From Synechococcales cyanobacterium M55_K2018_004 (lineage in GTDB: Bacteria; Cyanobacteriota; Cyanobacteriia; Elainellales; Elainellaceae): a stretch of DNA of 39,472 nucleotides. Positions 1-3,443 of the stretch are shown here, piece after piece. Location: the NCBI GenBank assembly GCA_015295905.1, contig DVEB01000176.1, positions 1 through 39,472 of the forward strand, in the 5' to 3' direction. The notes beneath the pieces are model-generated. The model ran no database searches, was not told the origin of the DNA, and was given only the letters and a program-made list of their open reading frames with translations. How positions within the stretch are numbered: position 1 is the first letter of the stretch; the number at the start of each line of letters is the position of its first letter. A program made the position numbers and the translations under genes.

Positions 1-117
1 TAACGTGAATTCGGGATACGCTGAACCCCTTGCTTTTCCGTGCGCGACGCGCACGGAAAAGCAAGGGGTTTGGGGCACCGCGCCGTCCCAAACCCCGCTC
101 AACCAGAACTGACGTTA
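1..117. repeat. MITE-like palindromic element, copy A
   Basis: The ends are imperfect inverted repeats: TAACGTGAATTCGGG at 1-15 against TAACGTCAGTTCTGG read on the minus strand from 117 to 103. The interior holds a perfect 23-bp palindrome (24-46 / 48-70) and a second stem (65-74 / 87-96). A shorter relative with the same ends lies inverted at 3394-3443. No ORF is inside, so it would be non-autonomous if mobile. It may extend left beyond the window edge. Confidence 0.6.
24..70. repeat. Perfect 23-bp hairpin with 1-nt centre
   Basis: The left arm 24-46 and right arm 48-70 are exact reverse complements around A47. The core is CG-rich (GTGCGCG/CGCGCAC). It lies about 100 bp before the rsmB start. 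It forms the core of repeat copy A, and could also act as a transcription or mRNA-structure barrier. There is no T-tract, so a classical terminator is not obvious. Confidence 0.8.
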
Positions 118-173
118 AAATCATTGTTTCTCTGACATTTTTTCTGCAATCTCTTTAAGTGCTGAAGTACAGT

Positions 174-1592
174 ATGCGGCAAACATCTACCAATCCCAGG
201 CAGTTGGCGTTGCTGGCTCTGCAAGCTATTCACCGGGGGAAGTTTGCTGATGCTGCACTCGATCGAGTGTTACAACAATCTTCAGCTAGCCCTGTTGATC
301 GGAGGTTAATCACTGAGTTGGTGTATGGGTGTGTGCGGCGATCGCGCACTCTCGATACCTTAATCGACCAGTTAGCGACCAAACCAGCCGCGCAGCAGCC
401 CCTCAATCTGCGCCTAATCCTGCACCTAGGGTTATATCAGTTACGCTACCTGAGTCACATTCCCGCCGCCGCTGCGGTGGATACGAGCGTCGAACTGGCC
501 AAGCAAAATGGCTTGGGTGGTCTTTCCGGGTTTGTCAATGGTCTGCTGCGGCGCTATCTGCGGCAACAAGAGGCGATAGGAGATCCCCTCAAACTGCCTC
601 CAGACCCCGTGCAAGCGCTGGCGGTGTCCCAGAGTTTCCCTGACTGGATTGTGCAGGTGTGGGTTGACCAATGGGGGCTTGAGGGCGCTACTCAGCTTTG
701 TGAGTGGATGAATCAGTCGCCCCATATTGACCTACGGATCAATCCCCTGGTCACTTCCCGTGCCCAAGTAGCGGCGGCTATGCAGGCGGCGGGGATCGCC
801 GTCCAACCGATCGCGGGGATTCCCCAGGGATTGCGCCTGCCTACAGGACTAGGGGCCATACAACATCTGCCAGGGTTTGCCGAAGGGTGGTGGACCGTGC
901 AGGATGCTAGCGCTCAGTTGGTGGGACACCTGCTCGACCCCCAACCGGGCGAAACGGTGATCGATGCCTGTGCTGCACCGGGGGGAAAGACGATGCACCT
1001 GGCAGAATTAATGGGCGATCGCGGCACAATTTGGGCGTGCGATCGCAACCCCAACCGCCTCAAGAAGCTAGAGGAGAACGTTCGTCGCCTGCATTTGCGC
1101 AACATTCACATCCAAATCGGCGATAGTCGCGACCTAGCTCAGTTCACGGGCAAGGCAGACCGTGTGCTAGTGGATGCCCCCTGCTCTGGTTTGGGAACAT
1201 TACACCGTCATGCTGATGCCCGTTGGCGACAAACCCCTGAAAATATTCAAGAACTGGCTCGCCTGCAAACAGAATTACTAGATAGGGTTGCCGCCTGGGT
1301 CAAGCCCTACGGAGTCCTAGTCTACTCAACCTGCACGTTGCATCCGTTGGAAAACGAGGGGGTCGTCCAGGCGTTTTTGCGACATCACCCCGACTGGTCA
1401 ATTCTGCCTATCAACTCTGTTCCTTTGGCGACTTCTGCCGATTGTCCTGTTCAAGATCAGTGGGCAACGCTAGCAGCCCCAGAGGGCTGGCTCAAAATTG
1501 CCCCCCATCAGCAGGACATGGATGGGTTTTTCATGGTGCGGTTGCAAAAACAGTCGCCAAGCGACTCAACACTCCTACACCAGGGCTGCTAA
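174..1592 (+). CDS. rsmB: 16S rRNA (cytosine(967)-C(5))-methyltransferase RsmB
   Basis: This enzyme transfers a methyl group from SAM to C5 of C967 (E. coli numbering) of 16S rRNA. The protein has 472 residues, near the usual length for the family. The N-terminal part is the NusB-like RNA-binding domain (about residues 5-135). The C-terminal part is the Rossmann methyltransferase: SAM loop DACAAPGGKT near residue 265, motif IV DAPCSGLGTL with Cys337, and motif VI STCTLHPLENE with Cys387. Those two cysteines are the pair used in the RNA m5C mechanism. I chose ATG 174; a non-ATG start at 159 is possible. There is no strong ribosome binding site. It ends 8 bp from the convergent LabA-like gene. 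Confidence 0.93.
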   Translation: MRQTSTNPRQLALLALQAIHRGKFADAALDRVLQQSSASPVDRRLITELVYGCVRRSRTLDTLIDQLATKPAAQQPLNLRLILHLGLYQLRYLSHIPAAAAVDTSVELAKQNGLGGLSGFVNGLLRRYLRQQEAIGDPLKLPPDPVQALAVSQSFPDWIVQVWVDQWGLEGATQLCEWMNQSPHIDLRINPLVTSRAQVAAAMQAAGIAVQPIAGIPQGLRLPTGLGAIQHLPGFAEGWWTVQDASAQLVGHLLDPQPGETVIDACAAPGGKTMHLAELMGDRGTIWACDRNPNRLKKLEENVRRLHLRNIHIQIGDSRDLAQFTGKADRVLVDAPCSGLGTLHRHADARWRQTPENIQELARLQTELLDRVAAWVKPYGVLVYSTCTLHPLENEGVVQAFLRHHPDWSILPINSVPLATSADCPVQDQWATLAAPEGWLKIAPHQQDMDGFFMVRLQKQSPSDSTLLHQGC

Positions 1593-1600
1593 ACGCTCTA

Positions 1601-2257
1601 TTAGTTATTAAGTGCCGATACGCAGCTTTCGGGTTGTTTTGCCACAATCGATTGAATATCTGCCAGATTCACGTAGCAGTCCGAAACATTGATCAGTTGG
1701 TCGCTGGTCATCGATCGCAGGCTCACCAGTTCCACCCGTACTCCCTGATACCCGATCGCATTGACTGCATAGGTCAAGTCGCCATCCCCACTCACCAGCA
1801 CAGCCGTATCATAGCTGCCGACTAGCTTCATCATGTCTACCGCAATTTCAACTGCTAGGTCTGCCTTGCGAGATCCATCGGGAAACTGGACGAGGTCTTT
1901 TGTAACGACTCGATAGCCATTACGACGCATCCATAGCAAAAAGTTCTGTTGTTTTTCATTGGTGCGATCAACGCCGGTGTAAAAGTAGGCTCTCAGGAGG
2001 CGAGATTCTCCAACTAGGCATTGCAACAGGCGAGAATAGTTGATTTCAATGCCCATTTGCAACGCCGAATAGAACAAATTGGCACCGTCGATGAAGATGG
2101 CAACGCGCCCCCGGTTAACCCCTCGAAAAATGGAGGGATCACTACCCGTATCCATTTCATCGGCTTCTTCTGGGGACATAGGCTTGGGTTCTTTCAGACT
2201 GACCGTCTTCGGCCTAGTCGGTTGGAGCAATGGTTCGAGTTTTTGATCACTTGGCAT
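1601..2257 (-). CDS. LabA-like NYN domain protein (DUF88)
   Basis: The 218-residue protein has a disordered, Pro/Glu-rich N-terminus (1-48) followed by an NYN/PIN-like domain (about 50-205). Acidic residues of the fold are visible: Asp57 and Asn60 in IFIDGAN, Asp133 in KADLAVEIAVD, and Asp158/Asp160 in VSGDGDLTY. These are expected to bind metal in this nuclease-related family. In cyanobacteria LabA relatives include a clock-output repressor acting downstream of KaiC, but this family has several paralogues, so a clock role is only a possibility. The start at 2257 is favoured by a GGGAG ribosome binding site 7 nt upstream. The frame stays open upstream to 2350 without support. Confidence 0.85.
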   Translation of the reverse strand: MPSDQKLEPLLQPTRPKTVSLKEPKPMSPEEADEMDTGSDPSIFRGVNRGRVAIFIDGANLFYSALQMGIEINYSRLLQCLVGESRLLRAYFYTGVDRTNEKQQNFLLWMRRNGYRVVTKDLVQFPDGSRKADLAVEIAVDMMKLVGSYDTAVLVSGDGDLTYAVNAIGYQGVRVELVSLRSMTSDQLINVSDCYVNLADIQSIVAKQPESCVSALNN

Positions 2258-2264
2258 CGTAAAT

Positions 2265-2269
2265 CTCCC
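2265..2269 (-). promoter_or_regulatory. Ribosome binding site of the LabA-like gene
   Basis: GGGAG on the minus strand, separated by 7 nt from the ATG at 2257. It decides the start over the longer open frame reaching 2350. Confidence 0.6.
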
Positions 2270-2340
2270 TGTTTTGTTTAGTTGTTTTGATTCGCAATGA
2301 GTTGTTAAACGATCTGAAACGGTCGGTTTTGCTTTTCCTT

Positions 2341-2381
2341 GAAGGTGCATTAGCCGTACGGTGTACGGCTAATGCACCTTC
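2341..2381. repeat. Perfect 19-bp inverted repeat, 3-nt loop
   Basis: Arms 2341-2359 and 2363-2381 are exact reverse complements (GAAGGTGCATTAGCCGTAC type) around GGT. The repeat sits in the gap between the broken Mo-nitro_C-type gene and the LabA-like gene, both on the minus strand. It may terminate the former before the latter begins, or be a short dispersed palindrome. Confidence 0.75.
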
Positions 2382-2394
2382 GGGTCATTTAGAC

Positions 2395-2427
2395 GCTACA
2401 CACGTTGGTTTTCCCACGACGTGTAGC
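2395..2427 (-). terminator. Imperfect hairpin downstream of the pseudogene
   Basis: GCTACAC (2395-2401) pairs with GTGTAGC (2421-2427), with extra ACG/CGT pairing inside. It lies 13 bp past the restored stop codon of the minus-strand pseudogene, which fits a relic terminator. There is no clear U-tract. Confidence 0.35.
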
Positions 2428-2439
2428 CGAGCCTCAGTG

Positions 2440-2809
2440 TTAACAATATTCGGTGATATCTTCAGTGCATTCATCGGCGAGGCACCTCAGCGCACGAAAC
2501 CTGAGGTCAACCAGTTGTTCGTAAAACGGATTGAGTTTACGGATTGAGTTTACAGAGGGGGGGAATGCGGAACAGCGTGCGATTGAAGAATACGATGTCA
2601 CGTTCAAAGGGACACTGGGCAGGGATCAAGCGGCACAACAAACGGGCAGTTTGGGGTCGGGTAATTTGAAAGCAGGAGAGCCACTCACGAATGGGTTGTT
2701 GAGGATGGGTGAAGGAGGATGGCAGTGAAGCAGGAAAGAGAAAACGCATGACGATAAAACCAAGGCAATGAGTCGGCGGAGTCAATGGCTGAGGGCAGAG
2801 AGTTGCCAA
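2440..2809 (-). pseudogene. Mo-nitrogenase C-terminal-like (Mo-nitro_C) protein, frameshifted
   Basis: The upstream part reads LCRLIPAQCPFERDI and IPPLCKLNP, the typical core of the cyanobacterial Mo-nitro_C family (PF06967), and then stops. The rest, starting FYEQLVDLRFRALRCLADEC and ending in EYC plus a stop at 2440-2442, continues in another frame. The break is an exact tandem copy of a 13-bp unit (2526-2538 and 2539-2551). Removing one unit joins the two parts seamlessly into LCKLNPFYEQ. The family name comes from a domain of nitrogenase-associated proteins; the small cyanobacterial members have no established function. The start may be 2809 or the ATG at 2749. It lies 33 bp after the unrecognised gene on the same strand. 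Confidence 0.8.
2526..2551. repeat. 13-bp tandem duplication that breaks the gene
   Basis: ACGGATTGAGTTT occurs twice, at 2526-2538 and 2539-2551, with no spacer. Thirteen is not a multiple of three, so the copy shifts the frame and brings in a TAA on the minus strand. Confidence 0.9.
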
Positions 2810-2842
2810 AACGTGGCGTGGCGTACTAGATGCTGGTTGGAG

Positions 2843-3265
2843 TTAATCTGCTGCCAACAGAATATCGTCTAGGAGTAGACGATCGAGGGGTGAGAGGTGC
2901 TTTGGGGCGTGGCTTTTTGCCGCTGAGGTCAGGAGCAACTTGCCGTTGGGCAGGGTGCTAAAGTCCTTACCTAGAACAAATCCTTCTTTTAGGAGTTCTT
3001 GCACAACAACCATTAGGGTTCCCTCTCGCAGGGCTGCACAATCTTCAGGAGTGTAAAGGTTTTGCAAGGTCCACTGACAGGTTGATGGGTTGCGTTCAGC
3101 CAGTTGCACCACAGAGGCTGTCAGGAGGGCGGCAGTAAATTCAGCACCGAATTGAGCAGCGATCGCCTCCGAGAAGGTTTTTGCGAGTTCGCGGTCGTGT
3201 AGTTCCAGGGTGTTGATGGTAAAACTCACCAGCCGATTGAAATGCAGAATTTGATGGATGCCAAA
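2843..3265 (-). CDS. Hypothetical protein, about 140 aa
   Basis: I do not recognise this family. The product is a soluble-looking protein without signal peptide or membrane segment. It has an amphipathic central part (residues 15-60, with repeated Ala/Leu and charged residues) and a Leu/Asp-rich C-terminus ending LLLDDILLAAD. The ATG at 3265 (MFGIHQILHF) is more natural than the track-length start at 3352, whose first 29 codons look unrelated. Codon use resembles that of its neighbours. It is followed on the same strand by the broken Mo-nitro_C-type gene, so the two may once have been co-transcribed. Confidence 0.5.
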   Translation of the reverse strand, partial: FGIHQILHFNRLVSFTINTLELHDRELAKTFSEAIAAQFGAEFTAALLTASVVQLAERNPSTCQWTLQNLYTPEDCAALREGTLMVVVQELLKEGFVLGKDFSTLPNGKLLLTSAAKSHAPKHLSPLDRLLLDDILLAAD

Positions 3266-3393
3266 CATAAGTACAACACACTTGCCCTTGATCTCAGCAA
3301 CTAGGTTGTATGGTAGGCGGCAAACATGGAGAAGTTGTGGAGGCGCTTGCACGATGTCTGGAACGCTACCACGTCTGGAACGCTGGTGGTGTT

Positions 3394-3443
3394 TAACGTC
3401 AGTCCGGGTTCAGAGGGGGTCAGCCTATCCCGAATTCACGTTG
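3394..3443. repeat. MITE-like element, short copy B (inverted)
   Basis: Read on the minus strand this 50-bp stretch begins with AACGTGAATTCGGGATA, identical over 17 bp to positions 2-18. It continues GGCTGACCCCCT (2-18 copy: CGCTGAACCCCT) and ends GGACTGACGTTA, matching the end of copy A (GAACTGACGTTA). It lacks the palindromic core of copy A. Confidence 0.65.

Follow-up and report, generated by a model that had tools for sequence, protein, structure and literature searches.

The window, i.e. the whole stretch of 39,472 nucleotides from Synechococcales cyanobacterium M55_K2018_004 that has been analysed here, starts at the first base of contig C194 and contains near its beginning two short sequences in opposite orientations, which the first-pass annotation had described as copies of one miniature element with common ends, one copy with a palindromic core and the other without it. 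The questions raised by this locus are what kind of element this is, and whether the core has been lost or gained. Both copies are present in the window, with the following features:

2-116, + strand: long MITE copy, 115 bp, from AACGTG to GACGTT, 9 bp below the 124-bp form of the family
3-115, + strand: transposon proper of the long copy, ACGT...ACGT
2-21, + strand: left terminal repeat of the long copy, IS982 type
24-70, + strand: hairpin 1 of the long copy, perfect 23-bp arms (24-46 and 48-70), centre A47
65-96, + strand: hairpin 2 of the long copy, damaged, 9 bp gone after family column 83
97-116, + strand: right terminal repeat of the long copy
3395-3442, - strand: short MITE copy without hairpins, 48 bp
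3415-3420, - strand: direct-repeat remnant in the short copy, here ACCCCC (AAACCC in the family, columns 23-28 and 99-104)

The 17-base end of the element has two mismatch-free matches in the window, and two matches with up to 3 mismatches are obtained in none of 100 shuffles. The long copy is identical to the gapped family consensus at 106 of 115 positions, and the sequence GGGGTT is common to its two hairpins. The perfect 23-bp palindrome of the first-pass annotation is correct with regard to the arms, but these enclose one base, so that the palindrome extends over 47 bp. Because the window starts with the contig, the long copy has no readable left flank and its target duplication is not demonstrable; the same is true of the short copy, since its flanks match at just 4 of 6 bases. 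A search of the window against Rfam has given 0 matches above the gathering score, and a search of a plasmid collection with the long copy has given no match.

The family in the source genome and its relatives

The search for further copies that the first-pass annotation had proposed has returned many: with up to 2 mismatches, the 17-base end occurs at 606 places in the 5.0-Mb source genome (control: 0), while in other genomes it occurs at 102 places in G009 (up to 1 mismatch) and at 24 in G021. In a 728-kb sample of the source genome, we have found 78 distinct two-ended copies, located equally on the two strands (39 and 39), where three copies seen on both strands have been merged and 49 unpaired left ends, many of them truncated or diverged, have been excluded; 36 of the 78 are exactly 124 bp long. 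The 124-bp form consists of terminal repeats that enclose two hairpins, with the terminal inverted repeats being paired at 16 of 20 positions in the family consensus. The element is thus a MITE: it is short, present in many copies and has no transposase gene. The copies are mostly intergenic, with only 4 of the 78 located within ORFs of at least 150 aa (55.5 expected), and contigs often end inside the element, as 14 truncated copies occur at the ends of 41 sampled stretches of the source genome.

The two-hairpin layout is also found, with different stem letters, in two other genera, where a 122-bp form with two hairpins is found in 19 and in all 20, respectively, of the 20 copies fetched from each; the fetched copies were the best-matching hits, and the equal length of the G003 and G015 copies is therefore partly selected. 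The 20 best-matching copies fetched from G015 have a mean difference of 1.2%.

Boundaries, insertion sites and the IS982 transposase

The ends of the element coincide with its insertion boundaries, as the first-pass annotation requires: target duplications of 5-9 bp (mode 7) flank ACGT...ACGT, and at a score of at least 4 they are found in 34 of 77 copies, both-strand duplicates having been removed, against a mean of 1.25 and a maximum of 5 in 1000 shuffles. Of these 34 duplications, 24 begin with T and end with A. Among the best matches fetched, duplications at a score of at least 5 occur in 17 of 20 copies in G003 and in 19 of 20 in G015. Related empty sites, which had also been sought, have been found for one of the 74 copies whose joined flanks were tested: the joined flank of L193:12915 aligns through the junction, and 20 bases beyond it, with a different repeat that is present without interruption in about 20 stretches. 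No orthologous empty site has been obtained for an intergenic G003 copy compared with 8 other genomes, as its two flanks are adjoining in none of the genomes listed; among the matches listed, the right flank aligns with same-genus G021 over 501 bases at 65%, and pieces of 95-130 bases of the left flank are matched in G001, G005 and G023.

The same ends bound IS982 elements of ~1 kb in relatives and in other phyla, and we therefore assign the family to the IS982-type MITEs, a known kind of element. The MITE ends of the source genome agree with those of the IS982 element L041 at 17 of 19 positions on the left and 18 of 19 on the right, retaining the left/right asymmetry of the IS. In the published account of the IS982 family, the ends begin with AC, the autonomous elements are ~1 kb long, the direct repeats are of variable length and cyanobacterial members are included (ISNsp1) (PMC7335449); the AC ends and the variable-length direct repeats are also found here, whereas the present element is a non-coding 124-bp derivative, which has the AC, T9 and T15 of the end consensus AC(N)6T(N)5TT, with A at position 16. 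Both ends have been located in 17 IS982 elements, and in 7 of these the flanking 6-7 bp are, by eye, identical on the two sides; six are of the type T..A (L074, L204, L130, L062, L081 and L092) and one is of the type A..A (L205).

An IS982 transposase inside the same ends is found in other genomes only: in L041 it is broken, an open piece of 170 aa matching NF033520 at 1.3e-43 and PF13612 at 4e-59, in L204 it is an open frame of 303 aa with an IS982 transposase match of 261 bits, and there are others. The matching transposase anticipated by the first-pass annotation thus exists as an IS982 family in relatives, but no match over the cut-off occurs in the source genome, where the best match to the L041 piece and the NF033520 model reaches 26.5 bits (cut-off 130), a negative that is not final because the assembly is a draft of 362 contigs. 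The transposase may be absent or unassembled there: an IS of 1 kb that occurs repeatedly may be missing from fragmented assemblies, or the driver may have been lost. In two other copy-rich genomes, the best match is at 8.3e-5 (G003) or there is no match (G009). The best of the weak matches, on contig C360 (L162), resembles by eye another type of transposase, and the ends of the element are not seen beside it. We have not counted an autonomous partner in the same genome as a requirement for an already dispersed MITE family.

An IS982-family transposase, the putative mover, would recognise the asymmetric ends of ~19 bp, ACGTGARTTCGGGATAA...TTAACCMGAACTGACGT, and insert the element mostly between genes, usually at T...A sites, duplicating mostly 6-9 bp; such insertion is supported by the boundaries, the duplications and the full-length IS982 elements elsewhere. 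MITECca01 of Cardinium cOegib, which originates from ISCca4 of the IS982 family and has 169 copies of about 240 bp, is likewise mostly intergenic and without a transposase gene; its genome contains intact parental ISCca4, whereas here the parental IS of ~600 copies has not been found, and the word “hairpin” does not appear in the main text of that report, whereas here two conserved hairpins have loops in both orientations (PMC9769881). The Nezha elements are also cyanobacterial MITEs (PMC3733652). As small, palindromic, intergenic sequences in hundreds of copies, the present elements could also be taken for REP/REPIN elements, moved by RAYT (a Y1 transposase). REP/REPIN elements are not known to have a target duplication, and the duplications and IS982 ends that are present here make this reading hardly credible; we have set it aside. 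REPINs share with our family the many short intergenic hairpins with compensatory changes, but are RAYT-associated inverted REP pairs, as opposed to elements with IS982 ends and target duplications (PMC3116915).

The short form and the probable loss of the core

Hairpin-less 48-bp places occur 45 times in the source genome (25-base pattern, up to 3 mismatches). In the family, the short form corresponds to the long form minus one copy of the 6-bp direct repeat AAACCC and everything between the two copies, and the sequence of the short copy in the window fits a deletion of both hairpins between these repeats; neighbouring deletion points fit this copy about equally, as it is identical to the consensus minus 76 columns at 41 of 48 positions (deletion after column 28) or 42 of 48 (after column 29). 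At the breakpoints of the shorter forms, the matching repeats are only short, with a mean length of 2.0 bases against 0.98 at random, in a scoring that left out AAACCC for the 48-bp form (column 105 is variable), where the consensus has been relied on instead. The best-matching 20 of the 45 places were fetched, the window copy aside; 19 have been read as two-ended, one of them a wrongly paired 92-bp row (L278), and duplications at a score of at least 5 are found in 11 of the 19.

The first-pass annotation had left open whether the core was lost or gained, and the evidence favours loss, since the form with two hairpins recurs at equal length in two other genera and the short form is the long form minus a repeat-bounded block. 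If instead the 48-bp MITE were ancestral, the hairpin block would have been inserted with AAACCC as its target duplication. Such a gain would agree with the direct repeat that flanks the block in the consensus, and with two diagnostic bases that are shared by 5 of the 18 copies of 48 bp that were fetched and by 2 of the 36 long ones (p 0.034, chosen post hoc); three of the five have clear, differing duplications, and the short form may thus be mobile. The gain is very improbable, given the 122-bp length shared by the best hits of the two other genera, the minority status of the 48-bp form (45 places against 606 left ends) and the further deletions that occur in the same region.

Stem pairing and loop orientation

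The stems of the hairpins covary: 83 cells have changes on both sides, where shuffles give 21.3 (none of 500 reaches 83), and 29 of 52 pairs covary, with these counts being inflated by the relatedness of the copies. G-T and A-C pairs number 28 and 28 in hairpin 1, and 23 and 26 in hairpin 2, unlike the terminal repeats, where G-T exceeds A-C by 27 to 13. Among the 36 source-genome copies of 124 bp, all 36 hairpin pairs are Watson-Crick in only 6, and there are 77 compensated against 138 non-Watson-Crick cells. Covariation of this strength could reflect RNA pairing, with the hairpins acting in transcripts as terminators, in mRNA stability or as small RNAs, and the intergenic position of the copies would be in line with it, as would the fact that intact copies fold strongly (as DNA, z -12 to -14); selection at the RNA level is nonetheless quite unlikely, as neither hairpin shows a preference for G-T over A-C, the loops are found in both orientations, the copies are equal on both contig strands (39:39) and the window has no Rfam match.

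In G003, where 100 of 312 readings are listed and 13 read from the other strand have been removed (leaving 59 and 28), the hairpin-2 loop of the copies with exact arms (n=39) is GAA in 25, TTC in 13 and TTT in 1, while in a second subfamily (n=28) it is AAC in 18, GTT in 7, GTC in 2 and GAC in 1. Beyond exact arms, other triplets occur in 7 of 59 listed hairpin-2 readings and, besides GAC/GTC, in 11 of 56 hairpin-1 loops (56 of 57 rows; the omitted row has a changed arm base beside the loop). Hairpin-1 GAC/GTC and hairpin-2 GAA/TTC occur in all four combinations (23, 9, 5 and 2 of 51 paired copies), and the reversed loop of L231 is its sole difference from the G003 consensus. In G015, hairpin 2 with exact arms (n=46) has GTC in 31, GAC in 14 and AAC in 1 (68 of 89 rows were tallied, namely these 46 and 22 from one subfamily), and a hairpin-1 subfamily (n=25) has GAT/ATC in 3/3 and GGT/ACC in 12/1 (61 of 96 rows: 36 exact and these 25). 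In the source genome (n=36), the centres are A14:T16 and G5:C1 in hairpin 1, and G16:C15 and A3:T2 in hairpin 2; one-base changes such as these and the GTC/GAC of G015 are indistinguishable from a point transversion, whereas the three-base cases are distinguishable.

The loop reversals could be artefacts of the assembly of palindromes from short reads, a reading suggested by the source-genome contigs that often end inside the element, as the assembly is evidently troubled by it (14 truncated copies, 41 stretches). We find this unlikely: the arms, at 17-23 bp, fall short of the word length with which assemblers usually end, the reversed loops accompany other copy-specific differences (L241 and L242), and other triplets are nearly absent in exact-arm copies (1 of 39 among the listed readings, 1 of 46).

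The deletions and both loop orientations are read directly from the sequence. Between the ends, the two nearly perfect DNA hairpins would form a region that is copied inaccurately in three ways, each with a scar of its own: one hairpin or both would be lost by slippage between short direct repeats (giving the 48-bp and the 76-92-bp forms), a loop would be turned round when the strand or the template is switched within its hairpin, and the same switching, by copying one arm from the other, would change the stem letters and keep their complementarity. According to a study of template-switch mutations in hairpins, one event explains compensatory changes and whole-loop inversions (PMC8794818); the complete loop inversions that it describes in rRNA are very rare (69 loop-only cases, enriched over simulation), whereas here about a third of the exact-arm copies in two genomes (listed readings in G003) have the rarer hairpin-2 loop. 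Template switching in replication is the likely cause of the scars, rather than a step of transposition. Alternatively, the hairpins could be selected as folded DNA for transposition, with loop reversal as a by-product of each transposition; the layout and length retained in three genera despite the letter changes, and the mixed loops even among G015 copies with a mean difference of just 1.2% (20 fetched), speak for it. We regard it as a lesser possibility, as the 48-bp copies have target duplications, some with shared diagnostics, and hairpins are therefore seemingly not required; full-length IS982 elements also share the ends without such an interior.

We consider it probable, with good confidence, that the family consists of non-autonomous IS982-type MITEs with an inaccurately copied hairpin region, where deletion, loop turning and arm rewriting occur. 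For a broader reading we see even chances: the hairpins would be invertible DNA cassettes that are kept paired by copying and not by RNA selection, with switching repeatedly turning loops and rewriting arms well above the ordinary substitution rate; the two-hairpin 122-bp layout would persist from genus to genus despite the replacement of its letters, and older families would approach equal orientations, while younger ones would lean to that of the founder. A loop-flipping two-hairpin MITE variant has not been found in the literature searched.

The family is an IS982-type MITE in hundreds of copies where the assembly yields no partner transposase, and it bears on the question of a one-step origin of compensatory hairpin changes by template switching; the 2022 PNAS study termed its own evidence for maintenance circumstantial (PMC8794818). 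Very similar mobile hairpins are present here at numerous independent sites, where both orientations of the loop occur and signs of RNA selection are lacking; they constitute a natural replicate experiment, and the loops in both orientations are a natural record of mirror-image DNA that has been copied and kept paired.

Copies of the element in the window and the genome

The left-end sequence of 17 bases matches the window twice, once on each strand, whereas 0 of 100 shuffles attained two matches; the long and the short, inverted copy that the first-pass annotation had attributed to one element are thus both recovered. The palindrome that it had claimed for the long copy is indeed perfect, but the 23 bp given as its length belong to each of its arms.

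Features of the window (coordinates, strand, description)
2-18, + strand: first match of the 17-base end, from the sequence search
2-116, + strand: long copy
24-46 and 48-70, + strand: perfect 23-bp arms of the hairpin of the long copy
3395-3442, - strand: short copy
3426-3442, - strand: second match of the 17-base end, from the sequence search

The left flank of the long copy is unreadable, because base 1 of the window is also base 1 of its contig (G000:C194:1-39472). The window also contains a further palindrome at 2341-2381 (GAAGGTGCATTAGCCGTAC..GTACGGCTAATGCACCTTC, 19-bp arms, 3-base loop) and 42 occurrences, with 0.5 expected, of GCGATCGC, which we take to be the HIP1 word, typical of cyanobacteria.

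The genome search for further copies that had been proposed has returned 606 places with the 17-base end (at most 2 mismatches) in the same genome, against 0 for the reversed control. In a sample of 40 stretches of this genome and the window (727,634 bases), we have located 131 left ends (at most 3 mismatches). A right end follows within 260 bp in 81 cases, which correspond to 78 distinct two-ended copies after the merging of three that were counted on both strands; 49 more left ends have no right end in range. The copies are divided evenly between the strands (39 and 39), only four are located within open frames of at least 150 codons (random expectation 55.5), and 36 are exactly 124 bp long, with a mean pairwise difference of 18.6%.

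The consensus consists of 20-bp terminal repeats (16 of 20 positions paired), hairpin 1 (23-bp arms) and hairpin 2 (20-bp arms), each hairpin with one centre base; the segment 64-69 is common to both hairpins. Folded as single-stranded DNA, one copy each from this genome and from the genomes G003 and G015, of two other genera, reaches z-scores of -12 to -14 (equalled by 0 of 200 shuffles), the long copy of the window reaches -6.5 and its short copy -0.6, with 47 of 200 shuffles equally good.

Contigs of this genome, including the window, often stop inside or at a copy (e.g. L003, L005, L011, L018 and L019), and the element is therefore probably one cause of the 362 pieces of the assembly. Several more palindromic repeat families occur in the sampled stretches L164-L203, for example TTTTGTGGGAAACCC..GGGTTTCCCACAAAA adjoining GTCCTAACCTATGCGTGTAGCGCTAT, TTTTGATGGGGAGGCGTGC.., GGTTAGTTTTTGGTAGAACGCGC.. 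and TTGTTGTGGTGTAAAACGTGCGC..; outside the detected copies, the sample holds 104 palindromes with arms of at least 16 bases, 20 of which resemble the cores of the element.

Insertion boundaries and the IS982 parent family

With the boundaries set at ACGTG...GACGT, a flanking direct repeat (score of at least 4) is found in 34 of 77 copies, compared with 1.25 in shuffled pairings, i.e. the ends coincide with insertion boundaries, as the annotation had supposed. The repeats measure 7 bp (18 copies), 6 bp (9), 8 bp (4), 9 bp (2) and 5 bp (1), and 24 of the 34 have T as their first and A as their last base; at a score of at least 5, repeats flank 17 of 20 fetched copies in G003 and 19 of 20 in G015. 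The suggested search for empty sites has succeeded for a single copy, L193:12915, which sits inside another repeat of the same genome: in about 20 stretches, unbroken copies of that repeat align to its joined flanks across the junction (74-84% identity), but the remaining 73 joined flanks yielded no comparable set.

A matching transposase, also sought at the annotation's suggestion, is present in relatives, of the IS982 type, but none above the family cut-off is found in this genome, nor in G003 or the compared genome G009, despite the richness of all three in elements with such ends. In the relatives, these ends also bound elements of about 1 kb; those of G015 (L035, L041) have a broken transposase, whose longest open piece matches NF033520, an IS982 model, at 1.3e-43 and PF13612 at 4e-59. 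In the genome G021, the open frame of the element L204 measures 303 aa (261 bits), and the ends and duplication of this element are of the same kind. IS982-like genes are also located between ACGTGAGTTCGGGATAAG and CTTAACCCGAACTCACGT, or near variants, in records of several phyla (Phormidium tenue FACHB-1050, an acidobacterial bin, two Sphingobacterium). Among 17 elements with both ends located, seven have flanks of 6-7 bp that are identical by eye, T..A in six; in the miniature element, the left end still differs from the right end as it does in such insertion sequences. In Cardinium, a MITE that derives from an IS982 element has already been described (PMC9769881).

There are three side observations. 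The long open frame of L162, on a contig assigned to this genome (G000:C360), matches the IS982 model weakly (26.5 bits) and by eye looks like another transposase type. L206 (G015:C7) is an IS982 element whose frame of 250 aa is unbroken; its ends (ATCTCAGTTCGGG...CTCAGAT) are diverged and may represent a second end specificity. Lastly, L033, L036, L039, L042, L047 and L052, from G009 and G021 (102 and 24 end matches, respectively), combine the same IS982-type ends with different palindrome-rich interiors; there may have been more than one capture of hairpin blocks by IS982 ends.

Origin of the short form

The 48-bp form corresponds to the 124-bp form minus 76 columns, the deleted block being bordered by AAACCC at consensus columns 23-28 and 99-104; the short copy of the window is identical to this reduced form at 41-42 of 48 positions. 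In the same genome, 45 places resemble it (at most 3 mismatches; control 0), and 18 of the best 20 of these, which were fetched, measure 46 bp from ACGT to ACGT; other variants, of 76-92 bp, lack one hairpin or are hybrids. The two-hairpin element has matches in 2 of 35 other genomes of the taxonomic family, and 19 of 20 fetched copies in G003 and 20 of 20 in G015, picked from the best matches, have the two-hairpin form at the same length as here (122 bp from ACGT to ACGT). Of the core loss or gain that the annotation had offered, this equal length favours loss over gain. Two diagnostic bases are common to 5 of 18 short and 2 of 36 long copies (p 0.034, post hoc), and three of these five short copies have different clear duplications, a hint that the short form is itself mobile.

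Hairpin stems and loop orientation

Alignment of the 36 copies shows changes on both sides in 29 of 52 pairs; covarying cells number 83, compared with 21.3 in shuffles and 8 to 23 in slid structures, counts that are not independent events, because related copies are counted repeatedly. Mismatches of G-T and A-C are equally common in the two hairpins (28:28 and 23:26), which points to pairing at the level of DNA, because RNA pairing tolerates G-U but not A-C; in the terminal repeats, G-T is commoner (27:13). All 36 hairpin pairs are Watson-Crick in 6 of 36 copies of this genome, where decay is visible, and all 20 fetched G015 copies are fully paired over the 35 pairs examined.

The three centre bases of the hairpins occur in opposite orientations.

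Loop triplets in G003 and G015
G003, hairpin 1 (n=56): GAC 36, GTC 9, others 11
G003, hairpin 2, exact arms, among the matches listed: GAA 25, TTC 13, TTT 1
G003, hairpin 2, at most 2 arm mismatches, among the matches listed (n=59): GAA 35, TTC 17, others 7
G003, second hairpin-2 subfamily, among the matches listed (n=28): AAC 18, GTT 7, GTC 2, GAC 1
G015, hairpin 1, exact arms (n=36): GAC 29, GTC 3, GAT 3, GGT 1
G015, hairpin-1 subfamily (n=25): GGT 12, GAC 5, GAT 3, ATC 3, GTC 1, ACC 1
G015, hairpin 2, exact arms: GTC 31, GAC 14, AAC 1

A point transversion would look identical to a loop reversal in the GTC/GAC difference, and likewise in the more diverged family of the own genome, where both hairpin centres are divided about 50:50; within GAA/TTC and within AAC/GTT, each triplet is the reverse complement of the other and none of the three positions is identical. 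Since the fetched copies differ on average by 1.2% in G015 (20 copies) and 6.8% in G003 (19 copies), the loop is far more variable than the rest of the element. The orientations of hairpin 1 and hairpin 2 are combined in all four possible ways in G003 (23, 9, 5 and 2 of 51) and in G015 (21, 11, 3 and 1 of 48); therefore, the orientation has changed more than once, or copies have recombined. With exact arms, the rarer orientation in G015 is more frequent in hairpin 2 (14 of 45) than in hairpin 1 (3 of 32; p 0.028).

The main technical caveat is the draft state of the assemblies. In the accessible parts of the open-licence literature, including PMC9208149, PMC8794818, PMC3116915, PMC3733652, PMC9769881 and PMC7335449, we have found no MITE with reversed hairpin loops. 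The main rival explanation is a step linked to transposition that reverses the loop; we infer template switching between strands as the cause, which would account both for the loop reversal and for compensatory change of the stem in one step (PMC8794818).
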